Shown in pieces: positions 5,342 through 63,218 of a stretch of 64,000 nucleotides of DNA. Source of the stretch: Polyangium sp. 15x6 (GTDB taxonomy: Bacteria > Myxococcota_A > Polyangia > Polyangiales > Polyangiaceae); contig NZ_JASBQE010000003.1 of assembly GCF_029960785.1 (NCBI RefSeq), positions 186,001 to 250,000 on the forward strand, read 5' to 3'. Under the pieces are notes generated by a model. The model did not search any database. It was not told the origin of the DNA and worked only from the letters and a program-made list of their open reading frames with translations. The stretch's first letter is position 1. The number at the start of each line of letters is the position of its first letter. The translations under genes were made by a program, and so were the position numbers.

Positions 5342-6109
5342 TCAGCGATTCACGGGCCGAAGGCCCGCGCGTGCCAGGAACGCGGCGCACGCGGGCACGG
5401 CCATCCCCGGGCCTCCCGTGCCGCTCGCGAGATCACGCGCGAAACGATCGAGATCCGCGGGCGTGTCGATCTCGTAGGTCGGCTTCAGGAGCAGCGTCTC
5501 CAGGCCGAGCTCCGCGGCGCGCTTCGTCGCGCGTTCGAGCACGCCGGGGGACGTCCAGTCCACGCCGTCGAAGAGCGCAGGCTCGTAGTGGGTCGTGCCG
5601 ATGAGGTAAAGACCTCCCGCGACCGTCGGCCCGAGCAGCGCACGCTTTCGCTTGGCGGCGAGCCAGAGCAGACCCTCGAAGACCTCGTCGAGCGGCATGA
5701 ACGGCGCGTCGGTGGTGACGATCGCCGCAGCCTCGGCGCCGGTCGTGAAGAGGTGCTCGAGCCCGTGGCCGAGCCGCTTCTCGAGGTGCGTCGTGCCGGC
5801 CGAGACGACGTGTTGCCATCGCCCTGGCACGAGCTTTTGCAGCACCGCGCTCTCCTCGTCGGACACGCTGAGCACCGCGCGATACGCCATCGGCAGGATG
5901 GCGAGCATGTTCAGCGCGTCGCCGAGGAGCGCCGACGAGAGCTCCGCTGCGGCCTCGGGGGAGAGCGGTGGAGAGAGGCGAGGCTTCGCCGTGCCCGCGA
6001 TCGGAGCGCGAGCGAGGACGCCGAGCGCGAGCCTCTGGGGGCGGACGGTGGGGCGGGCGCGATGGTCGGCCACGCCTCGTCGTACCACGAGTTTCGTGTC
6101 CTTGGCCAA
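5342..6109 (-). CDS. DUF2064/TIGR04282-type glycosyltransferase-like protein
   Basis: A 255-residue soluble nucleotide-diphospho-sugar-transferase-fold protein of the DUF2064 (TIGR04282) family, whose members lie beside rSAM/selenodomain and arsenosugar genes in other bacteria. Visible features are the first strand LGVLARAPIAGTAKPRL, the LEKRLGHGLEHL segment, the metal-binding-like IVTTDAPFMPLDEV (Asp in place of the usual DCP motif) and the GPTVAGGLYLIG core. The frame opens with TTG at 6109; GTG at 6088, preceded by AAGGA, is an alternative. It converges on the cytidylyltransferase with a 10-bp gap. A short CGGGCC-GAA-GGCCCG hairpin sits in its last codons (5353-5367). Substrate unknown. 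Confidence 0.8.
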   Translation of the reverse strand: MAKDTKLVVRRGVADHRARPTVRPQRLALGVLARAPIAGTAKPRLSPPLSPEAAAELSSALLGDALNMLAILPMAYRAVLSVSDEESAVLQKLVPGRWQHVVSAGTTHLEKRLGHGLEHLFTTGAEAAAIVTTDAPFMPLDEVFEGLLWLAAKRKRALLGPTVAGGLYLIGTTHYEPALFDGVDWTSPGVLERATKRAAELGLETLLLKPTYEIDTPADLDRFARDLASGTGGPGMAVPACAAFLARAGLRPVNR

Positions 6110-57602: not shown

Positions 57603-57621
57603 GAGGGTGCTCGATAGCGTA

Positions 57622-57725
57622 GCGCCGGGGTTTCACCCCGGACCCGACGAGGGGCTGTCCGCCCCTCGACCCGGACCAGGGCCAGCCCTGGACCTTTGGT
57701 GCATCGACCGCGGTGCGGTCGATGC
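57622..57725 (+). repeat. Structured intergenic repeat, copy A (104 bp)
   Basis: Contains four consecutive hairpins: CCGGGG/CCCCGG (57625-57641), CGAGGGGC/GCCCCTCG (57648-57668), CCAGGGC/GCCCTGG (57676-57691) and GCATCGACCGC/GCGGTCGATGC with a 3-base loop (57701-57725). It is inverted with respect to copy B (61746-61849) and differs from it at only 3 of 104 positions, two within ACCxxxGGT (a possible fifth mini-hairpin) and one in the fourth loop. It fills a convergent gap between the gene ending at 57602 and the TPR gene. Confidence 0.92.
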
Positions 57726-57736
57726 AATCGATTTTC

Positions 57737-58258
57737 TCAGTCGAACTCGACCGGCTCGTTCTCGCCGACGATCCCCAGCATGCCGAGGATCTGCTCGACC
57801 TCGAGACGCGCTTCGAGCTCGGGGTTCGACTTGAGGAACCCTTCGAGCTGCTTCTTCGCGGCCTTGCGGTTGCCCTTCGCGGCGTAGGCGAGGCCAGCGG
57901 CCTGCATCGCCTCGCCATCGCCGGGGAACCTGCGCAGGGCTTCGTTCGCCTGCGACAGGGCGCCGTCGAGGTCGCCGAGCTGGCGCAAGAGGTGCGAGAG
58001 CGCGACGCGCGCGCCGAGGTAGTTCGGGGCGAGGCGGAGCGCCGCGCGGTAAGCTTCACGCGCGGTCTCGCGCTCCCCCGTCTCGAAGAGGGCGGCGCCG
58101 AGGAAATGGAACGCGTAGGGGTTCCTCGGATCGGCCTTGATGACGTTTCGCAGGGCGACGAGCGCCTCGACGAAGCGCCCGTCGTTCATGAGCTCGGTCG
58201 CCTCTTCGACCGCGTCCCATCGGGCGGCGTCTTCTGCATCCACGGTCTGCGTTGCCAT
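57737..58258 (-). CDS. TPR-repeat protein
   Basis: A 173-residue soluble protein with about three tetratricopeptide repeats (residues 18-125): YAFHFLGAALFETGERETAREAYRAAL, ALSHLLRQLGDLDGALSQANEAL and AMQAAGLAYAAKGNRKAAKKQLEGF show the small-residue pattern at W/L/G/Y/A/F/A/P positions. The tail (residues 135-173) is acidic and Glu-rich. Scaffold or chaperone-like role, no partner visible. It reads toward the structured repeat, 12 bp from its stop. Confidence 0.85.
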   Translation of the reverse strand: MATQTVDAEDAARWDAVEEATELMNDGRFVEALVALRNVIKADPRNPYAFHFLGAALFETGERETAREAYRAALRLAPNYLGARVALSHLLRQLGDLDGALSQANEALRRFPGDGEAMQAAGLAYAAKGNRKAAKKQLEGFLKSNPELEARLEVEQILGMLGIVGENEPVEFD

Positions 58259-58348
58259 GCGCGAAGCATACGCGCGGAAAGCGCGGCGCGCCGTAGGGCG
58301 AGCGATCAGCGCTTCCGGCACCTCGTTTTTCGTGGTTAGTCCCGCTCG

Positions 58349-60367
58349 ATGCTCGAAAGGCCCCGCGAGCCCGCGCTGTTCTCGGTCTTCGCGGCGATCG
58401 TCGTGATCGCGGTGGGCCTCGCGTTCTGGCTGCCCGGGTTCGCGCGGACGGACGGGGTGTTCCCGGTCCCGCTCGACGACGTCTACATCCACTACGGATT
58501 CGCGCGGTCGGCGGCGCTCGGCCACCCGTTCGCGTGGCTGCCGGAGAACGGCTACTCCTCGGGCGGGACGAGCCTCACGTATCCGCTCGTGCTCGCGCCT
58601 GCGTGGGCGCTCGGCTTGCGAGGCGCGCAGCTCTCGTACTTCGCGGCCGCGATCACGTGCGTCTGCTTGTGGGATCTGTGCCGCTCGGTGCGAGCGTTGC
58701 TCGAAGGGACGCCGCGATTCGCGGCCTACATCGCGGCGCCCCTGCTCCTCGCCGTGCCGCTCGTCGACTGGAGCCTGTACTCGGGCATGGAGACCGCGCT
58801 CTTCGCGGGGATCCTCGGCCGTCTGCTCGTCGCGGCGCGGCGCGCGACGACGGCGTCGCCGCACGAGCGTCCCTCCGCGCAGCTCCGCGCCGGGCTCTGG
58901 GGCGCGCTCCTCGTGGCCACGCGGCCCGAGTCCGCGGCGCTCGTCGGGCCGCTCGGCGTGGCCGTGGTGTACGGCGCGCGTTCGCTCGGAACGGTGCCCT
59001 CGCTCCTCCGCGCGCTCGGACCGATGGGGGTTTTCCTGGCCGCGCAGGCCGCGGCGAACCTCGTGTTCACCGGGGAAATGAGCCAGGCGGGCGCGGTCCG
59101 CAAGCTCGTCGGGACGAACCCGTACCTCACGCCGATCGAGGCGGCCGTGGAGGTGATCAAGAACCTCGCCGTGCTGCAGGCGCAGGCATTCGACGTGGCG
59201 CTCGGGGGCCCGTCGGTCTCGTTCGTGGTGCCGCTCCTCGCGCTCGTCGCGGTCTTCGCGCGGCGCACGCGTCTCCTCGCGGCGCCGCTTCTCGCGGGCG
59301 CGATCGGCATGCTCCTGCTCGTGTCGTTGAACACGACGGCGCGGTACCAGAACTTCCGGTACGCCGTGCCTTCGCTCCTGTTCCTGCTCGTCGTGGCGGC
59401 GCTCGGAGCCGCGGAGCTGATGCGACGGGGGCGCGTGCTTCGCGCGCTCGGGATCGGGCTCGCGCTCGTCGCCGCGCTCGCGCCCGCGCGGCTCTTCCCG
59501 CGGCAGATCGATCATTTCGCCCGCGCTTCCGGCAACATCGAGCATCAGCAAGCCGAGGTCGCTCGTCGTCTCGCCGCGCTCTCGCCGCGTCCTCGGCGGG
59601 TCCTCGTCGGGGACGCGGGGGCGATCCCGTACCTCTCGGGTATTTCGGCGCTCGATGGCCTCGGCCTCGGCGGTTATCACGACCTGCCGTTCGCCCGCGC
59701 CTCGGTGCACGGGATCCCCGCGATCGTCGAGCTCATCGAGCGGATGCCGGCGAGCGAGCGGCCCGACGTGATGGCGATCTACCCGGGCTGGTTCCCCGAT
59801 CTCGCGCGATCGTTTGGACAGCAAATGTTCTCCGTGCGGATCGAGGACAACGTGATCTGCGCCGCGCCGGAGAAGGTCGTGTACGCGGCCGACTGGTCCA
59901 CGCTCGCGGCGAGCGGCGAGACGCGGGCGGGTTCGGTCTTCGAGGTCGATGTCGCGGATCTCGTGGACGAACGGGCACACGGATACACGTTCCCGCGGCC
60001 GCAGGCCGGGTGGGTGATCGGCGCGACGTTGCAAGATGCGGCCGGGCGCGCGCGGTTCGACGCGGGCCGCATCGTTCCGCAGGGGCAAAGCGAGTCGTTT
60101 CGCGTCGCGCCGCACGTCGAGCGAGGTCCCGCGACGCTCGTGCTCCGGACCGATGGCGGCGGACCGATCACGCTCGTGATCGAGCACGTCGTGCGCGGGG
60201 AGCCCCTCGGGGGAGGCTCGCAAACCGTGGAGATCCCGGCGCGGGACGAGGCGACGTGGTTCGAGGCGCGTGTCCCGCTTTCCTCCGTCGGCGGTCGTGA
60301 TTCCGTGACGATCACGGCGAAGCAAAACGCATGGCGGAGCTTCCACGCGTGGCTCGTACGACCTTGA
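58349..60367 (+). CDS. GT-C-fold membrane glycosyltransferase-like protein
   Basis: A 672-residue integral membrane protein with about ten hydrophobic helices in residues 10-400 followed by a ~230-residue periplasmic domain. The first loop holds LDDVYIHYGFARSAAL; the DD pair near residue 46 is the catalytic signature of GT-C enzymes that use polyprenyl-phosphate sugars (arabinosyl/mannosyltransferase-like). The C-terminal part is beta-rich (RAGSVFEVDVADLVDE, GPATLVLRTDGGGP), like a carbohydrate-binding sandwich. A cell-envelope glycosylation role is inferred. It forms an operon with the two genes that follow. Confidence 0.8.
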   Translation: MLERPREPALFSVFAAIVVIAVGLAFWLPGFARTDGVFPVPLDDVYIHYGFARSAALGHPFAWLPENGYSSGGTSLTYPLVLAPAWALGLRGAQLSYFAAAITCVCLWDLCRSVRALLEGTPRFAAYIAAPLLLAVPLVDWSLYSGMETALFAGILGRLLVAARRATTASPHERPSAQLRAGLWGALLVATRPESAALVGPLGVAVVYGARSLGTVPSLLRALGPMGVFLAAQAAANLVFTGEMSQAGAVRKLVGTNPYLTPIEAAVEVIKNLAVLQAQAFDVALGGPSVSFVVPLLALVAVFARRTRLLAAPLLAGAIGMLLLVSLNTTARYQNFRYAVPSLLFLLVVAALGAAELMRRGRVLRALGIGLALVAALAPARLFPRQIDHFARASGNIEHQQAEVARRLAALSPRPRRVLVGDAGAIPYLSGISALDGLGLGGYHDLPFARASVHGIPAIVELIERMPASERPDVMAIYPGWFPDLARSFGQQMFSVRIEDNVICAAPEKVVYAADWSTLAASGETRAGSVFEVDVADLVDERAHGYTFPRPQAGWVIGATLQDAAGRARFDAGRIVPQGQSESFRVAPHVERGPATLVLRTDGGGPITLVIEHVVRGEPLGGGSQTVEIPARDEATWFEARVPLSSVGGRDSVTITAKQNAWRSFHAWLVRP

Positions 60368-60401
60368 AGATCACGGGCGCCGTCCGTGGCATCCTCGCGG
60401 C

Positions 60402-61115
60402 ATGGCGGATCGTCCCTTCTGGGCCCGCGCGCTCGTGAACGCGGGCCGAGAGGCCCTCGCGTTCGGGCGGCAGGCATGGCTCCTGCGGCACGATCTCGAG
60501 GGAGCCGCGCCGCCTGCCGAGGTGCAGGACGGCGACGACGTCGTGGTGCTCCTCCACGGCCTCTTCGCGACGGCCGGCGGGCTCCGTCCCATGCGCCGCG
60601 CGATCACGCGTCACAAGGGCGTGCACGCCGCGGCGATGACGTATCCGCCGGGCCCGGGCGTCGAGGAGCTCGCCGAACGGCTCGCGGCGCTCACCGCGGA
60701 GCTGCCCGGCGCGGCGCGCCTGCATCTCGTGGGGCACAGCCTCGGCGGCGTCGTTTCGCGGTTTTACGCGCAGGAGGCGGGGGACGCGCGGGTCGTGCAG
60801 ACGATCTCGATGGCGAGCCCGTTCGCGGGCGTCGTCGGGGCGAGCGCGCTCGGGTTCGGCGCGGCGCGTGATCTCGCGCCGGACAGCGCGGTCCTGCGCA
60901 GGATCCGCCTCGCCGCATCGGCCACGGCGAACGTCCCGCATCTCTCGATCATCGCAAGGGCGGACGCCGTCCTGCGTTCGCCCGTGTCACACGCCCTGCC
61001 CGGCGGCGAGGTGATCGTGATGGAAGGCCAAGGGCACAACACGGTGCTCTTCGACGAGGAGGTCGCGCGGATCGTCGAGCGGCGGATCCTCACCCGCCGC
61101 AGAAAAACGTGCTAG
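60402..61115 (+). CDS. Alpha/beta-hydrolase lipase-like protein
   Basis: A 237-residue soluble hydrolase. VVLLHGLFATAGGLRPM carries the oxyanion residue, GHSLGG the nucleophile, and QGHNTVLFD the His; the Asp is probably in IARADAVLR. The N-terminal helix (FGRQAWLLR) precedes the core. It resembles PGAP1-type or small triacylglycerol-lipase-like hydrolases. It begins 34 bp after the GT-C gene on the same strand, so a joint role in remodelling lipid-linked glycans is possible but unproven. Confidence 0.85.
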   Translation: MADRPFWARALVNAGREALAFGRQAWLLRHDLEGAAPPAEVQDGDDVVVLLHGLFATAGGLRPMRRAITRHKGVHAAAMTYPPGPGVEELAERLAALTAELPGAARLHLVGHSLGGVVSRFYAQEAGDARVVQTISMASPFAGVVGASALGFGAARDLAPDSAVLRRIRLAASATANVPHLSIIARADAVLRSPVSHALPGGEVIVMEGQGHNTVLFDEEVARIVERRILTRRRKTC

Positions 61116-61125
61116 GTGCGGGTTC

Positions 61126-61716
61126 GTGCGTCGCAACGTGAAAGCTTCGTGGATCGGAGTCGCGCTCGCCCTCGGGGCCATGCTCGCGCCGGACGTCGCG
61201 CGGGCCGACGCGTCGGCGTGGGCGTTCGCGGGGGCAGGGGCGCTCGCGTGGAAAGAGGGGACGGCGGCGCTCGCGCCGCGCGCGGCCTTCAACATCGATT
61301 ACGGCGTGGGCACGACGCCGGACGGATCCTTCATCGTCGGCGGTCTCGCGCGGCTCACGCCCGTGGTCGACGAGGGCCTCGACCTGTCCTTGCTCGCGCG
61401 CTTCGCCACGCACGGCTTTCAGGCGGGCAAAGTGGGCGTCGCGGTCGACGTGGGCGGCTACCAGAGGCTCTGGGGGACGTACTCGCGCGGCGTGGCCGGG
61501 GGCCTCACGCTCGGCTTGCCGCTCGGCTTCTCGATCGGCGTGCAGGGGCTCTACGGGACGGGCGACGCGCTCGCGTTCGGCGCGTTCGCCGGCATCGATT
61601 TCCTGCGCCTGACGATCTACCGGCAGTCGATGCTCGACGCGTGGCCGAACCCGTACCCGGCGCATCAAACGCCGGCGGCGACGGCCTCGTTCGGGCCGTC
61701 GCCACGGTTCTTCTAG
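61126..61716 (+). CDS. Small exported outer-membrane barrel-like protein
   Basis: A 196-residue protein with signal peptide ending near ARADA; the start is GTG. The mature part consists of Gly-rich amphipathic strands (SFIVGGLARLTPVV, VAVDVGGYQRLWGTYSR, GLTLGLPLGFSIGVQGLYG) and ends in Phe-Phe, as expected for a barrel. It starts 10 bp after the lipase and ends 29 bp before the inverted copy of the structured repeat. Function unknown. Confidence 0.75.
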   Translation: MRRNVKASWIGVALALGAMLAPDVARADASAWAFAGAGALAWKEGTAALAPRAAFNIDYGVGTTPDGSFIVGGLARLTPVVDEGLDLSLLARFATHGFQAGKVGVAVDVGGYQRLWGTYSRGVAGGLTLGLPLGFSIGVQGLYGTGDALAFGAFAGIDFLRLTIYRQSMLDAWPNPYPAHQTPAATASFGPSPRFF

Positions 61717-61745
61717 GTCGGAGAAAGCAGAGCTCCGGATCGCTT

Positions 61746-61849
61746 GCATCGACCGCATCGCGGTCGATGCACCAGTGGTCCAGGGCTGGCCCTGGTCCGG
61801 GTCGAGGGGCGGACAGCCCCTCGTCGGGTCCGGGGTGAAACCCCGGCGC
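61746..61849 (-). repeat. Structured intergenic repeat, copy B (104 bp, inverted)
   Basis: Reverse complement of copy A at 57622-57725 with three differences, all in predicted loops, and no indel. The hairpins are the same; the long one (61746-61770) pairs GCATCGACCGC with GCGGTCGATGC around ATC. It occupies the convergent gap between the barrel-like gene and gcvPA, starting 29 bp after one stop and ending 10 bp before the other. Confidence 0.92.
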
Positions 61850-61859
61850 GGCGCCTCCG

Positions 61860-63218
61860 TTAGATCGCCGCGAGAGCCTCGACCAGCCGGTCGAGGTCCG
61901 CGCGCGTGTGGCGCTCGGTCACGGCGATGAGCAGCTCGCCCTTCCGATCGGCGCTGACGCGGCCGAGGTCGAAGCCGGGGATGATGTCCCGCGCGGCGAG
62001 CGCGTCGCAGACCTTCTTCGCGTCGCCGCCGCGCACGCGCACGACGAACTCGTTGAAGGTCGGAGCGCGGTACGGCAGCGCGTAGCCTTCGAGGCCCGCG
62101 ATCGCCTGCTTCAGGTACTCGGCCTTGGCGAGGCACTGACGCGCGGCCTCCACGAAACCCTTCTTGCCGAGCATGCACATCTTGATGGTCATCGCGGTCG
62201 CGCAGAGGCCGCTGTTCGTGCAGATGTTGCTCGTGGCCCGCTCGCGGCGGATGTGCTGCTCGCGCGTGGCCAGCGTGAGCACGTAGCCGCGGTTGCCCGC
62301 TTTATCGACGGTCTCGCCGACGATGCGGCCGGGGATCTGCTGGAGGTATTTGCGGTCGTCGCGGCACGCGAAGAGCCCGACGCCGGGGCCGCCGAACTGC
62401 GGCGGGAGGCCGAGCGGCTGGCCCTCGCCCACGGCGATGTCTGCGCCGAGCGCGCCGGGCGACTCGAGGAGCGCGAGCGCATACGGATCTTGCGTCGCCG
62501 TGATCACGAGCGCGCCCTTGTCGTGCGCGGCCTGGGCCACCTTCCGGAGATCGCAGACCGAGCCGTAGAAGTTCGGATACCCGACGACGACACACGCGGT
62601 CTCGGGCGTGATCGCGGCCGCGAGCGCGTCCACGTCCGCGGCGCCGTTCGCGGCGAGAGGCACCGTCGTGAGCGAGGCCTTGCCCGTTCCGAGGCTACGC
62701 ACGTGCGTCTCGATCGTCTCCAGGTACTCGGGGTGGATGCCCGCGGAGATGACCGTGTGCTCGCGCCCGACGAGCCTGCGCGCCATGAGCACGGCCTCGG
62801 CGGTCGCGCTCGCGCCGTCGTACATCGACGCGTTCGCGAGCGGCAGGCCGAAGATCTCGCTGACGATCGTCTGGAACTCGAAGATGACCTGCAGCGTGCC
62901 CTGCGCGACCTCGGGCTGGTACGGCGTGTACGCCGTGTAGAACTCGCTGCGCAGGATGAGCTGATCGGCGGCGGGCGGGAAATGATGCTCGTACGCGCCG
63001 GCGCCGAGGAACGAGAGCATGCCGGCCGCGCGGTTCTTGCGGGCGAGCTCTTCGAGGTGGCGCATGAGCGACGGCTCGTCGACCGGCGCGGGCAGGTCGA
63101 GCGGGCGATCGTAGCGGGCGCGTGCGGGGATCGATTCGTAGAGCGCCTCGAGCGACGGCAGGCCGACGGCCTCCAGCATCGAAGCGATCTCCTCGGGCGT
63201 ATGAGGGAGGTATCGCAT
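61860..63218 (-). CDS. gcvPA: Glycine dehydrogenase (decarboxylating) subunit 1
   Basis: A 452-residue subunit of the split P protein of the glycine cleavage system, which decarboxylates glycine and passes the aminomethyl group to GcvH. The N-terminal MRYLPHTPEEIASML, FLGAGAYEHHFPPAADQL and EFYTAYTPYQPEVAQGTLQ are characteristic of GcvPA. The PLP-binding Lys is in the other subunit (GcvPB), which is not found downstream here. Length is normal for the split form. It lies 35 bp after gcvH on the same strand and is expected to share its transcript. Confidence 0.95.
   Translation of the reverse strand: MRYLPHTPEEIASMLEAVGLPSLEALYESIPARARYDRPLDLPAPVDEPSLMRHLEELARKNRAAGMLSFLGAGAYEHHFPPAADQLILRSEFYTAYTPYQPEVAQGTLQVIFEFQTIVSEIFGLPLANASMYDGASATAEAVLMARRLVGREHTVISAGIHPEYLETIETHVRSLGTGKASLTTVPLAANGAADVDALAAAITPETACVVVGYPNFYGSVCDLRKVAQAAHDKGALVITATQDPYALALLESPGALGADIAVGEGQPLGLPPQFGGPGVGLFACRDDRKYLQQIPGRIVGETVDKAGNRGYVLTLATREQHIRRERATSNICTNSGLCATAMTIKMCMLGKKGFVEAARQCLAKAEYLKQAIAGLEGYALPYRAPTFNEFVVRVRGGDAKKVCDALAARDIIPGFDLGRVSADRKGELLIAVTERHTRADLDRLVEALAAI

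Follow-up and report, generated by a model that had tools for sequence, protein, structure and literature searches.

A Genus-Wide Family of Noncoding Multi-Hairpin Elements in Polyangium, Concentrated between Convergent Genes

Two inverted sequences in the window (the whole stretch of 64,000 nucleotides of Polyangium sp. 15x6 DNA that was analysed) each represent one unit of a noncoding, multi-hairpin element whose family spans the genus Polyangium. On balance, we think it probable that the element is mobile and REP/BOX-like, is not accompanied by a RAYT, and putatively acts as a two-way block at transcript ends.

Two Copies in the Window

Copy 1 (57622-57725, + strand) and copy 2 (61746-61849, - strand) are reverse complements of 104 bases that align without gaps at 97.1% identity (101/104; blastn), as a preliminary description of two inverted copies with three differences and no indels had stated. 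That description placed all three differences in loops; all are unpaired, but just one is in a hairpin loop, that of hairpin 4, and the other two are in the linker that joins hairpins 3 and 4. Its four stem-loops were recovered with stems of 6, 8, 7, and 12 pairs, the last having been given as 11, and the fifth mini-hairpin that it considered possible may correspond to pairing of the hairpin-2 loop with the linker after hairpin 2. The features are as follows.

57603..57736: convergent gap A around copy 1 (stop codon 57600-57602 on the + strand; next gene ends at 57737 on the - strand)
57618..57733, + strand: copy 1, single unit, span of the model match (cmsearch with R1, 140.2 bits; blastn core 57622-57725)
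57619..57622, + strand: REP-like GTAG tag, 5' foot of hairpin 1 (sequence, tag counts)
57625..57641, + strand: hairpin 1, CCGGGG-TTTCA-CCCCGG (pair counts)
57648..57668, + strand: hairpin 2, 8-bp stem, with a loop at 57658-57660 (TCC) that covaries with the linker
57673..57675, + strand: GGA of the linker, pairing with the loop of hairpin 2 as a pseudoknot or alternative hairpin (complementary in 249/249 parsed sequences)
57676..57691, + strand: hairpin 3, CCAGGGC..GCCCTGG (pair counts)
57700..57726, + strand: hairpin 4, 12-bp stem (pair counts)
61717..61859: convergent gap B around copy 2 (stop codon TAG 61714-61716 on the + strand; TTA 61860-61862 for the - strand gene)
61738..61853, - strand: copy 2, single unit, span of the model match (cmsearch with R1, 133.6 bits; blastn core)
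61745..61771, - strand: copy 2 hairpin 4 (alignment A1, sequence)
61780..61795, - strand: copy 2 hairpin 3 (alignment A1, sequence)
61803..61823, - strand: copy 2 hairpin 2 (alignment A1, sequence)
61830..61846, - strand: copy 2 hairpin 1 (alignment A1, sequence)

The fold of copy 1 far exceeds chance on either strand (-68.6 and -71.3 kcal/mol; z of -5.5 and -5.3, with 0 of 200 shuffles as stable). Rfam covariance models had no match between 57400 and 62000 at E up to 1. Across five congeners, gap A has an element in one, is empty in three, and has a plain hairpin in one, and gap B is filled in three and empty in two.

A Genus-Wide Family with Modular Forms

Searches with the 104-bp unit, as nucleotide sequence and as covariance model, found hundreds of copies in the richest genomes and members in all six Polyangium genomes searched. 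The proposal of a structured repeat family is upheld, but the family is common to the genus and not confined to one species. Covariance-model matches in the host genome number at least 150, and blastn found 39 copies of nearly full length and a further copy of 80 bases, at 86-100% identity; an exact twin of copy 1 is on another contig (C268). Exact matches to the hairpin-3 motif number 486 in the host and 419, 249, 90, 53, and 17 in the other five Polyangium genomes, and the backward pattern, used as a control, has zero or one match in the same six. The family has no match in 33 related genomes of other genera. That the window copies differ at just 3 of 104 bases is what would be seen if one palindromic stretch had simply been duplicated locally and recently, but this candidate is refuted by the genome-wide copies and the twin on another contig, and we give it practically no weight.

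An element can be a single unit, a unit extended by tandem middle modules, or an inverted pair. Single units have unlike ends without a terminal inverted repeat, and inverted pairs are about 300-350 bp with long inverted ends. A head, one to four middle units, and a tail are present in L029, L030, L026, L038, and gap A of G002, and the number of middle modules ranges from 0 to 4 across observed elements.

Compensatory Change in Stems and Pairing of a Loop with a Linker

Compensatory stem changes, which the preliminary description had proposed as a check, are abundant. In alignment A1 (35 copies, after five of 40 with other tails were left out), 99.2% of 1255 cells are paired, and in a set of 97 copies, 99.7% of 3384 cells are paired, 19 of 36 pairs have changes on both sides, and two-sided changed cells outnumber one-sided ones 475 to 5. 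The family thus has neither just two copies nor unconserved stems, which that description had said would point to a simple duplication; its copies run to hundreds, and compensatory change is strong. Of the five shuffle controls of covariation, two were weak: the number of two-sided pairs in the 35-copy set was reached by 40 of 500 shuffles, and further pair types were not above shuffles (393 of 500 shuffles for 35 copies and 274 of 500 for 97). The stems contain almost no G-U pairs, and the order of the four hairpins is conserved across the family.

The hairpin-2 loop and the next linker are complementary in all 249 sequences that could be parsed from 259 unique ones (198 TCC/GGA, 50 TTC/GAA, and 1 CGC/GCG; the strings are unique, but a few copies possibly occur twice with different ends). 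Such covariation implies that a pseudoknot or alternative hairpin exists; a pseudoknot would be tight, with a linker of 4 bases having to span an 8-bp stem. By eye, three of the 10 unparsed sequences agree (L161, L168, and L039), two have an altered linker in which GGA is lost (L158 and L109), and four are matches that are partial, out of place, or to a middle module (L138, L170, L180, and L029). The tenth, L117, is the sequence from Acetobacteraceae. Certain unpaired bases are also nearly invariant: CCC before hairpin 2, ACC(C) after hairpin 2, and AC after hairpin 3 are conserved at 0.97-1.00 while stems vary, and the remaining unpaired columns range from 0.34 to 0.92.

Placement between Convergent Genes

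Elements are present in 45 of 169 convergent gaps versus 15 of 840 other gaps (odds ratio of 20) and, in a second set, in 12 of 100 versus 7 of 434 (odds ratio of 8); p-values for these comparisons are too small because gaps of related species are not independent. The first count omits four of 64 loci, three at edges and one overlapping a called gene, and seven of the 26 loci of the second set are in no called gap. Before context was counted, 14 of 113 listed model matches were dropped, none above 44.1 bits and mostly opposite-strand or partial. The median distance from element to stop codon is 6 bp, and 53 of 57 distances are within 30 bp. Convergent gaps tolerate any insertion best, so placement alone is no proof of function, an argument also made in the literature for pneumococcal repeats. 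In one genome, a bias of elements toward the replication terminus was observed.

Presence and Absence among Species

In 102 comparisons of orthologous sites, a model match was found in 59 and none in 43, in three of which an extra gene occupies the site instead of a short gap. Between G000 and G004, 10 of 17 loci are filled and seven are unfilled, one of the seven being an extra-gene case. Sites that are filled in one species and lack the element in others indicate that it is mobile, although each such difference is compatible with gain or loss alike. At sites 2, 7/49, and 15/57, the same gap has a different element type or orientation between species. Short direct repeats are beside the insert at a few sites (GCTC at site 45 of G005 and TCA at site 16 of G000), and by eye, filled and unfilled pairs have no target duplication of one common length.

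Inserts of 1.4-1.6 kb at two places, checked for an autonomous partner, contained only ordinary genes. A split pair of elements in G005, ~1.2 kb apart, likewise flanks an ordinary gene that by eye is HAD-type hydrolase-like. At these places, no related autonomous transposon was noticed. There was no match suggesting a phage or plasmid origin. The plain hairpin in gap A of G004, whose left arm resembles the left flanks of several copies, prompted the idea that elements insert into loops of older hairpin terminators. As a general rule, this was rejected, as mean flank complementarity was 6.01 versus 6.10 in shuffled pairs and 131 of 200 shuffles were equal or greater (35 copies).

Alternative Explanations

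A true REP/BIME family mobilised by a RAYT (Y1 transposase) would share several features with these elements. GTAG is the commonest foot, present in 17 of 35, 24 of 97, and 47 of 150 copies, most of the 150 being from loci picked by the exact hairpin-1 pattern. A Stenotrophomonas REP listed as GGTAGCGCCGGGCCATGCCCGGCG resembles hairpin 1, REPs too adjoin 3' ends between convergent genes, and REP dimers, with tags outside, are similar to the inverted pairs. Yet 73 of 97 copies are without a GTAG foot, and the search for a RAYT that the preliminary description had proposed found none. Y1_Tnp has matches in only three of the six Polyangium genomes and none in those with 90, 249, and 419 hairpin-3 matches, and none of the four Y1 loci has an element within it. 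Two of these loci (L041 and L195) are partial or interrupted; the two intact proteins, which were those scored against the RAYT model, are of the IS200 type, with 146 and 137 bits for IS200 TnpA versus 41.6 and 32.3 for the RAYT model, below its cut-off of 80 bits. A RAYT-mobilised family is thus improbable, and for present-day mobility, it is mostly refuted. The suggestion of a REP/BIME-type repeat holds for the placement by stop codons and for the GTAG foot in part of the copies, but not for a RAYT, length, or number of hairpins. Still less probable is a MITE of an ordinary DDE transposon. The long inverted ends of the inverted-pair form (about 300-350 bp) and the short direct repeats by a few inserts are features of that kind, but single units have differing ends and no terminal inverted repeat, flanks are as complementary as shuffled pairs, duplication length is not uniform across sites by eye, and the 1.4-1.6 kb inserts checked at two places are ordinary genes.

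Two further explanations concern what maintains the elements. Template switching corrects imperfect palindromes, and perfect stems could be maintained by such a mutational mechanism instead of selection on structure. Arm-to-arm correction predicts that one-sided changes or G-U pairs will be almost absent, as observed (5 of about 3374 paired cells in 97 copies), and the loop-linker pairing is likewise an inverted repeat. However, palindrome correction explains neither the conservation of key unpaired linker bases at 0.97-1.00, against 0.34-0.92 for other unpaired bases, nor the fixed order of hairpins, and we regard it as unlikely, if less so than a RAYT. A more serious possibility, though one we hold doubtful, is a repeat that is purely selfish and serves no function for the host, in which hairpins are recognised by a mobility enzyme and purifying selection leaves the repeat mainly between converging genes. 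This is consistent with the differences in presence between close species, the roughly 29-fold range of hairpin-3 counts among congeners (486 to 17), and the gaps in which type or orientation differs between species. But the median of 6 bp to the stop codon and the two-sided compensation fit a barrier to read-through at least as well, and the two readings are compatible with each other.

Predicted Function

The mobile element that we favor is predicted to act at 3' ends by means other than classical intrinsic termination. A T run follows hairpin 4 in one of 35 copies and, on the other strand, follows hairpin 1 in none of 35, which excludes a classical intrinsic terminator for nearly all copies tested; copy 1 passes a simple terminator scan (5 T in 8) and copy 2 fails. 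At convergent 3' ends that have no element, folding likewise exceeds that of shuffles (-2.7 kcal/mol), and 3' ends in tandem gaps of <25 bp have no excess fold (+0.1 kcal/mol), with T runs few in both. Because the stems are nearly free of G-U pairs, structure appears to be kept on both strands, as would be expected of an element in a convergent gap, where reading comes from either direction. We consider it most likely that hairpins without a U run stop or protect converging transcripts, forming a putative two-way 3'-end block. Insertions outside convergent gaps would interrupt operons or promoters and be lost. The element would be copied in trans by an enzyme that recognises a folded single strand and does not resemble known RAYTs.

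More tentatively, the family may be a mobile, pseudoknot-bearing candidate for a two-way transcript-end element that repeatedly colonises convergent gaps, gives interchangeable gene ends to part of the genus, is crowded in the replication-terminus half of the chromosome, and is moved by a hairpin-recognising enzyme. A gene pair whose gap is filled in one related species and empty in another is a natural experiment on transcript ends. The family is also a lead to a mobility system other than the RAYT/REP pairing, and the elements bear on transcript ends in G+C-rich bacteria, which may form where no U run is present.

Comparison with Known Systems

Like intrinsic terminators and SPRITE-type terminator-like repeats, the Polyangium elements have hairpins directly 3' of stop codons, but 34 of 35 copies are missing the U run, there are four hairpins, and both strands fold alike. 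ERIC and other palindromic intergenic MITE-like repeats are also about 100-130 bp, intergenic, and strongly folded. ERIC is a single long imperfect palindrome; the Polyangium element is instead a row of separate hairpins with no clear target duplication. GTAG-tagged REP/BIME sequences are extragenic palindromes near 3' ends that are frequent between convergent genes and form inverted dimers, and part of the Polyangium copies share the GTAG foot. They differ in being 20-40 bp with one hairpin, whereas the Polyangium element is 104 bp (2.5-5 times as long) with four distinct hairpins and loop-linker pairing. Their tetranucleotide foot is GTAG (or CGTC), which is not fixed in Polyangium, and a RAYT gene is usually flanked by the repeats, whereas none was found for the Polyangium element.

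In architecture, the element is like pneumococcal BOX (boxA-boxB(n)-boxC), which also consists of a head, n middle modules, and a tail, is presumed nonautonomous, and is over-represented between convergent genes. BOX has streptococcal hosts, and it differs from the Polyangium element, which has G+C-rich hairpins and an inverted-pair form. Relative to an odds ratio of about 3 from a published table for BOX, those of 20 and 8 in Polyangium represent a stronger bias in placement.

Copy number and host range

The preliminary description reported two inverted copies of a 104-base element with four hairpins:

57622-57725, + strand, copy 1
61746-61849, - strand, copy 2

The pair is real, its members differing at three bases, each unpaired, and it belongs to a much larger family. 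A DNA search with copy 1, in which 40 of 482 candidates were scored, recovered at least 40 copies in the genome of Polyangium sp. 15x6 (80–104 matched bases; 86–100% identity) as well as shorter pieces of the element, and contig C268 holds an exact twin of copy 1. A covariance model built from 35 copies yielded at least 150 matches in this 13.4-Mb genome, in which the window sits within contig C209 (E 1.3e-27 to 2.7e-8; every scored candidate matched). An exact hairpin-3 pattern occurs 486 times in the same genome and 419, 249, 90, 53, and 17 times in five other Polyangium genomes (G001 to G005; 90 in G005), with backward controls of 0–1 in each. Because this pattern is contained in 59 of 97 model matches, the genome may have an estimated ∼800 units. 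Copies are also visible at the extreme ends of at least 10 of its contigs (C201, C173, C184, C242, C77, C41, C241, C144, C57, and C18); the repeats therefore probably caused assembly breaks and the draft may undercount them.

All six Polyangium genomes have model matches, and none of 33 genomes from other genera in the same family and order has any. Among 140 genomes drawn evenly across the phylum, only that of strain 15x6 matched; this search applied tighter filters and scored 26 candidates in each genome. An exact scan of the GTDB species collection for hairpin 1 plus linker identified, among the matches listed, Polyangium sp. 6x1, P. fumosum DSM 14668, Polyangium sp. y55x31, and a sole locus outside the genus, L117, in an uncultured Acetobacteraceae MAG. 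The sequence there (L117:5895-5994, - strand) lies directly at a stop codon and has GTAG and an identical hairpin 1 and linker, followed by different hairpins. It scores 59.5 bits with the model, having been picked by the hairpin 1 and linker pattern itself, and its occurrence is attributable to convergence, transfer, or mis-binning. Collections of phages and plasmids had zero matches to the element.

Conservation of the fold

Stems are maintained across copies by paired changes. In the set of 35 copies with a single unit, pairing extends to 99.2% of 1255 cells, with two-sided changes at 6 of 36 pairs; across 97 copies (1.37 Mb, six genomes), in an alignment fitted to nested stems, 99.7% of 3384 cells are paired and two-sided changes affect 19 of 36 pairs. 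The compensatory stem changes that the preliminary description proposed to test for are abundant, as 475 changed cells are two-sided versus 5 one-sided. In the 97 copies, pairing percentage, two-sided cells, and covariation score were each reached by 0 of 500 shuffles and the number of two-sided pairs by 2, while the number of pair types was reached by 274; sliding the structure drops pairing to 34–47%. G-U pairs are nearly absent from stems, implying that the complement strand folds equally well. Fold z values are −5.3 to −6.3 for both strands of both copies.

Outside the nested model, three bases of the hairpin-2 loop are complementary to three bases of the linker before hairpin 3 in all 249 unique sequences that could be parsed in an alignment-free count (TCC/GGA in 198, TTC/GAA in 50, CGC/GCG in 1). 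These sequences are related and are not 249 independent events, but TTC/GAA is found on more than one hairpin-1 background. Parsing failed for 10 of 259 unique sequences, two of which have an altered linker by eye. A rival pairing of the linker with CCC before hairpin 2, present in the minimum-energy fold, is not conserved, as the linker changes to GAA while CCC remains. Conservation is 0.97–1.00 for CCC before hairpin 2, ACC(C) after hairpin 2, and AC after hairpin 3, and 0.34–0.99 in the remaining unpaired columns.

The element also occurs in modular forms. One has a head, 1–4 tandem middle units of ∼70 bp, each carrying a hairpin of its own, and the same tail as other copies:

L029, L030, L026, L038, and gap A of G002, head-middle-tail copies

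In another, arms of ∼120 bp are arranged as an inverted pair, ∼300–350 bp in total, with different tail hairpins. Clusters of two or more model matches occur at 33 of 64 loci. In G005, a tandem array of ∼40-bp units of CTCCAGACGCCGGGACC.. type (L246:19330-19680, by eye) adjoins a half element and is unlike the hairpin units.

Placement relative to genes and along the chromosome

Of 60 placed loci of the element, 45 are convergent, 12 tandem, and 3 divergent, and 45 of 169 convergent gaps are occupied versus 15 of 840 others (Fisher p 3.6e-25, overstated by gaps shared between related species). Genes were called with a simple codon-usage script rather than a standard gene finder, and part of this sequence was selected for holding copies. 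A second set, comprising evenly spaced slices of G005 (400 kb) and G002 contigs that are mostly known carriers (400 kb), showed the same bias, with 12 of 100 convergent gaps occupied versus 7 of 434 others (p 1.6e-5). The median distance from a model match to the nearest stop codon is 6 bp (≤30 bp in 53 of 57), and all 19 placed loci of the second set are within 49 bp of a stop. For the 12 tandem loci, the distance between the element and the following start is never less than 63 bp.

On the 13.2-Mb main contig of G005 (C1), all 90 hairpin-3 matches lie within 2.3–11.5 Mb (mean 6.8 Mb), distributed by tenths as 0, 1, 5, 13, 21, 25, 19, 5, 1, and 0. In 20 slices (L279-L298), G-C skew is mostly positive before ∼7 Mb and mostly negative after, and the matches are thus probably concentrated near the replication terminus or in the terminus half. 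The origin position is inferred, as a motif search of these slices detected no dnaA. The model had seven matches in them, in slices at 2.6, 4.6, 7.3, and 8.6 Mb.

Presence and absence between species

The element is mobile. The two convergent gaps of the window differ in occupancy:

57603-57736, gap A (copy 1), filled in strain 15x6 and G002
61717-61859, gap B (copy 2), filled in strain 15x6, G002, G004, and G005; empty in G001 and G003

Gap A has 0–10 bases between the two stop codons in G001, G003, and G005. Orthologous comparisons, covering 45 of 64 loci and some counted from both sides, found a model match in 59 and none in 43, three of the latter with an extra gene at the site. Relative to G004, the nearest relative (94–95% in two of three compared fragments), 7 of 17 loci have no model match. 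Sites lacking the element may once have had it, but gain at filled sites seems likelier because stop-to-stop spacing is tight at many sites without it. Some gaps have different forms or orientations according to species, and thus one gap seems to have been filled repeatedly. By eye, no target duplication of uniform length was seen; short direct repeats are present at a few sites.

In G004, gap A has a plain hairpin, TGAGAGGGTGTTCCACAGCG..CGCCTGTGGAACCAACCTCT, distinct from the element, between the convergent stops (L196, about 5739-5792). Its left arm is similar to the sequence that flanks several copies of the element on the left. Its 18-base pattern occurs with 0–1 mismatch at six places in the 15x6 genome (L042-L047; backward control 1).

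Potential function and comparison with known repeats

In this genus, convergent 3′ ends that lack the element also fold more strongly than their shuffled counterparts (−2.7 kcal/mol), in contrast to ends in tandem gaps <25 bp (+0.1), and T runs are scarce (10% and 6%, respectively). Hairpins without U runs may therefore be the usual gene end in Polyangium. We lean, with reservation, toward a putative host function in which the element would block or protect converging transcripts in both directions. A purely selfish element, which we consider possible but less likely, explains these observations too, provided that insertions at other sites are merely deleterious, an argument also made for pneumococcal repeats (PMC3049150).

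Among the matches listed in the literature searched, mostly outside subscription journals, there was no published account of such repeats in Polyangium. According to two accounts, REPs are short palindromes whose foot is either GTAG or CGTC, the GTAG type with RAYT transposases, and they are located near 3′ ends between convergent genes (PMC3733652; PMC2817692). The proposed REP/BIME-type identity holds in part. Like REPs, the Polyangium element is near 3′ ends, mostly between convergent genes. The foot is GTAG in some copies (17 of 35 and 24 of 97). The suggested link to a RAYT gene found no support, as Y1 transposases had no match in three of the six Polyangium genomes and both intact proteins tested (L193 and L194) are IS200/IS605 TnpA.

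L193, L194, L041, and L195, genes encoding Y1 transposases, from three Polyangium genomes

By eye, the transposase gene of L041 is followed by a series of hairpins. With BOX elements (PMC3049150), the Polyangium element has a modular plan in common.
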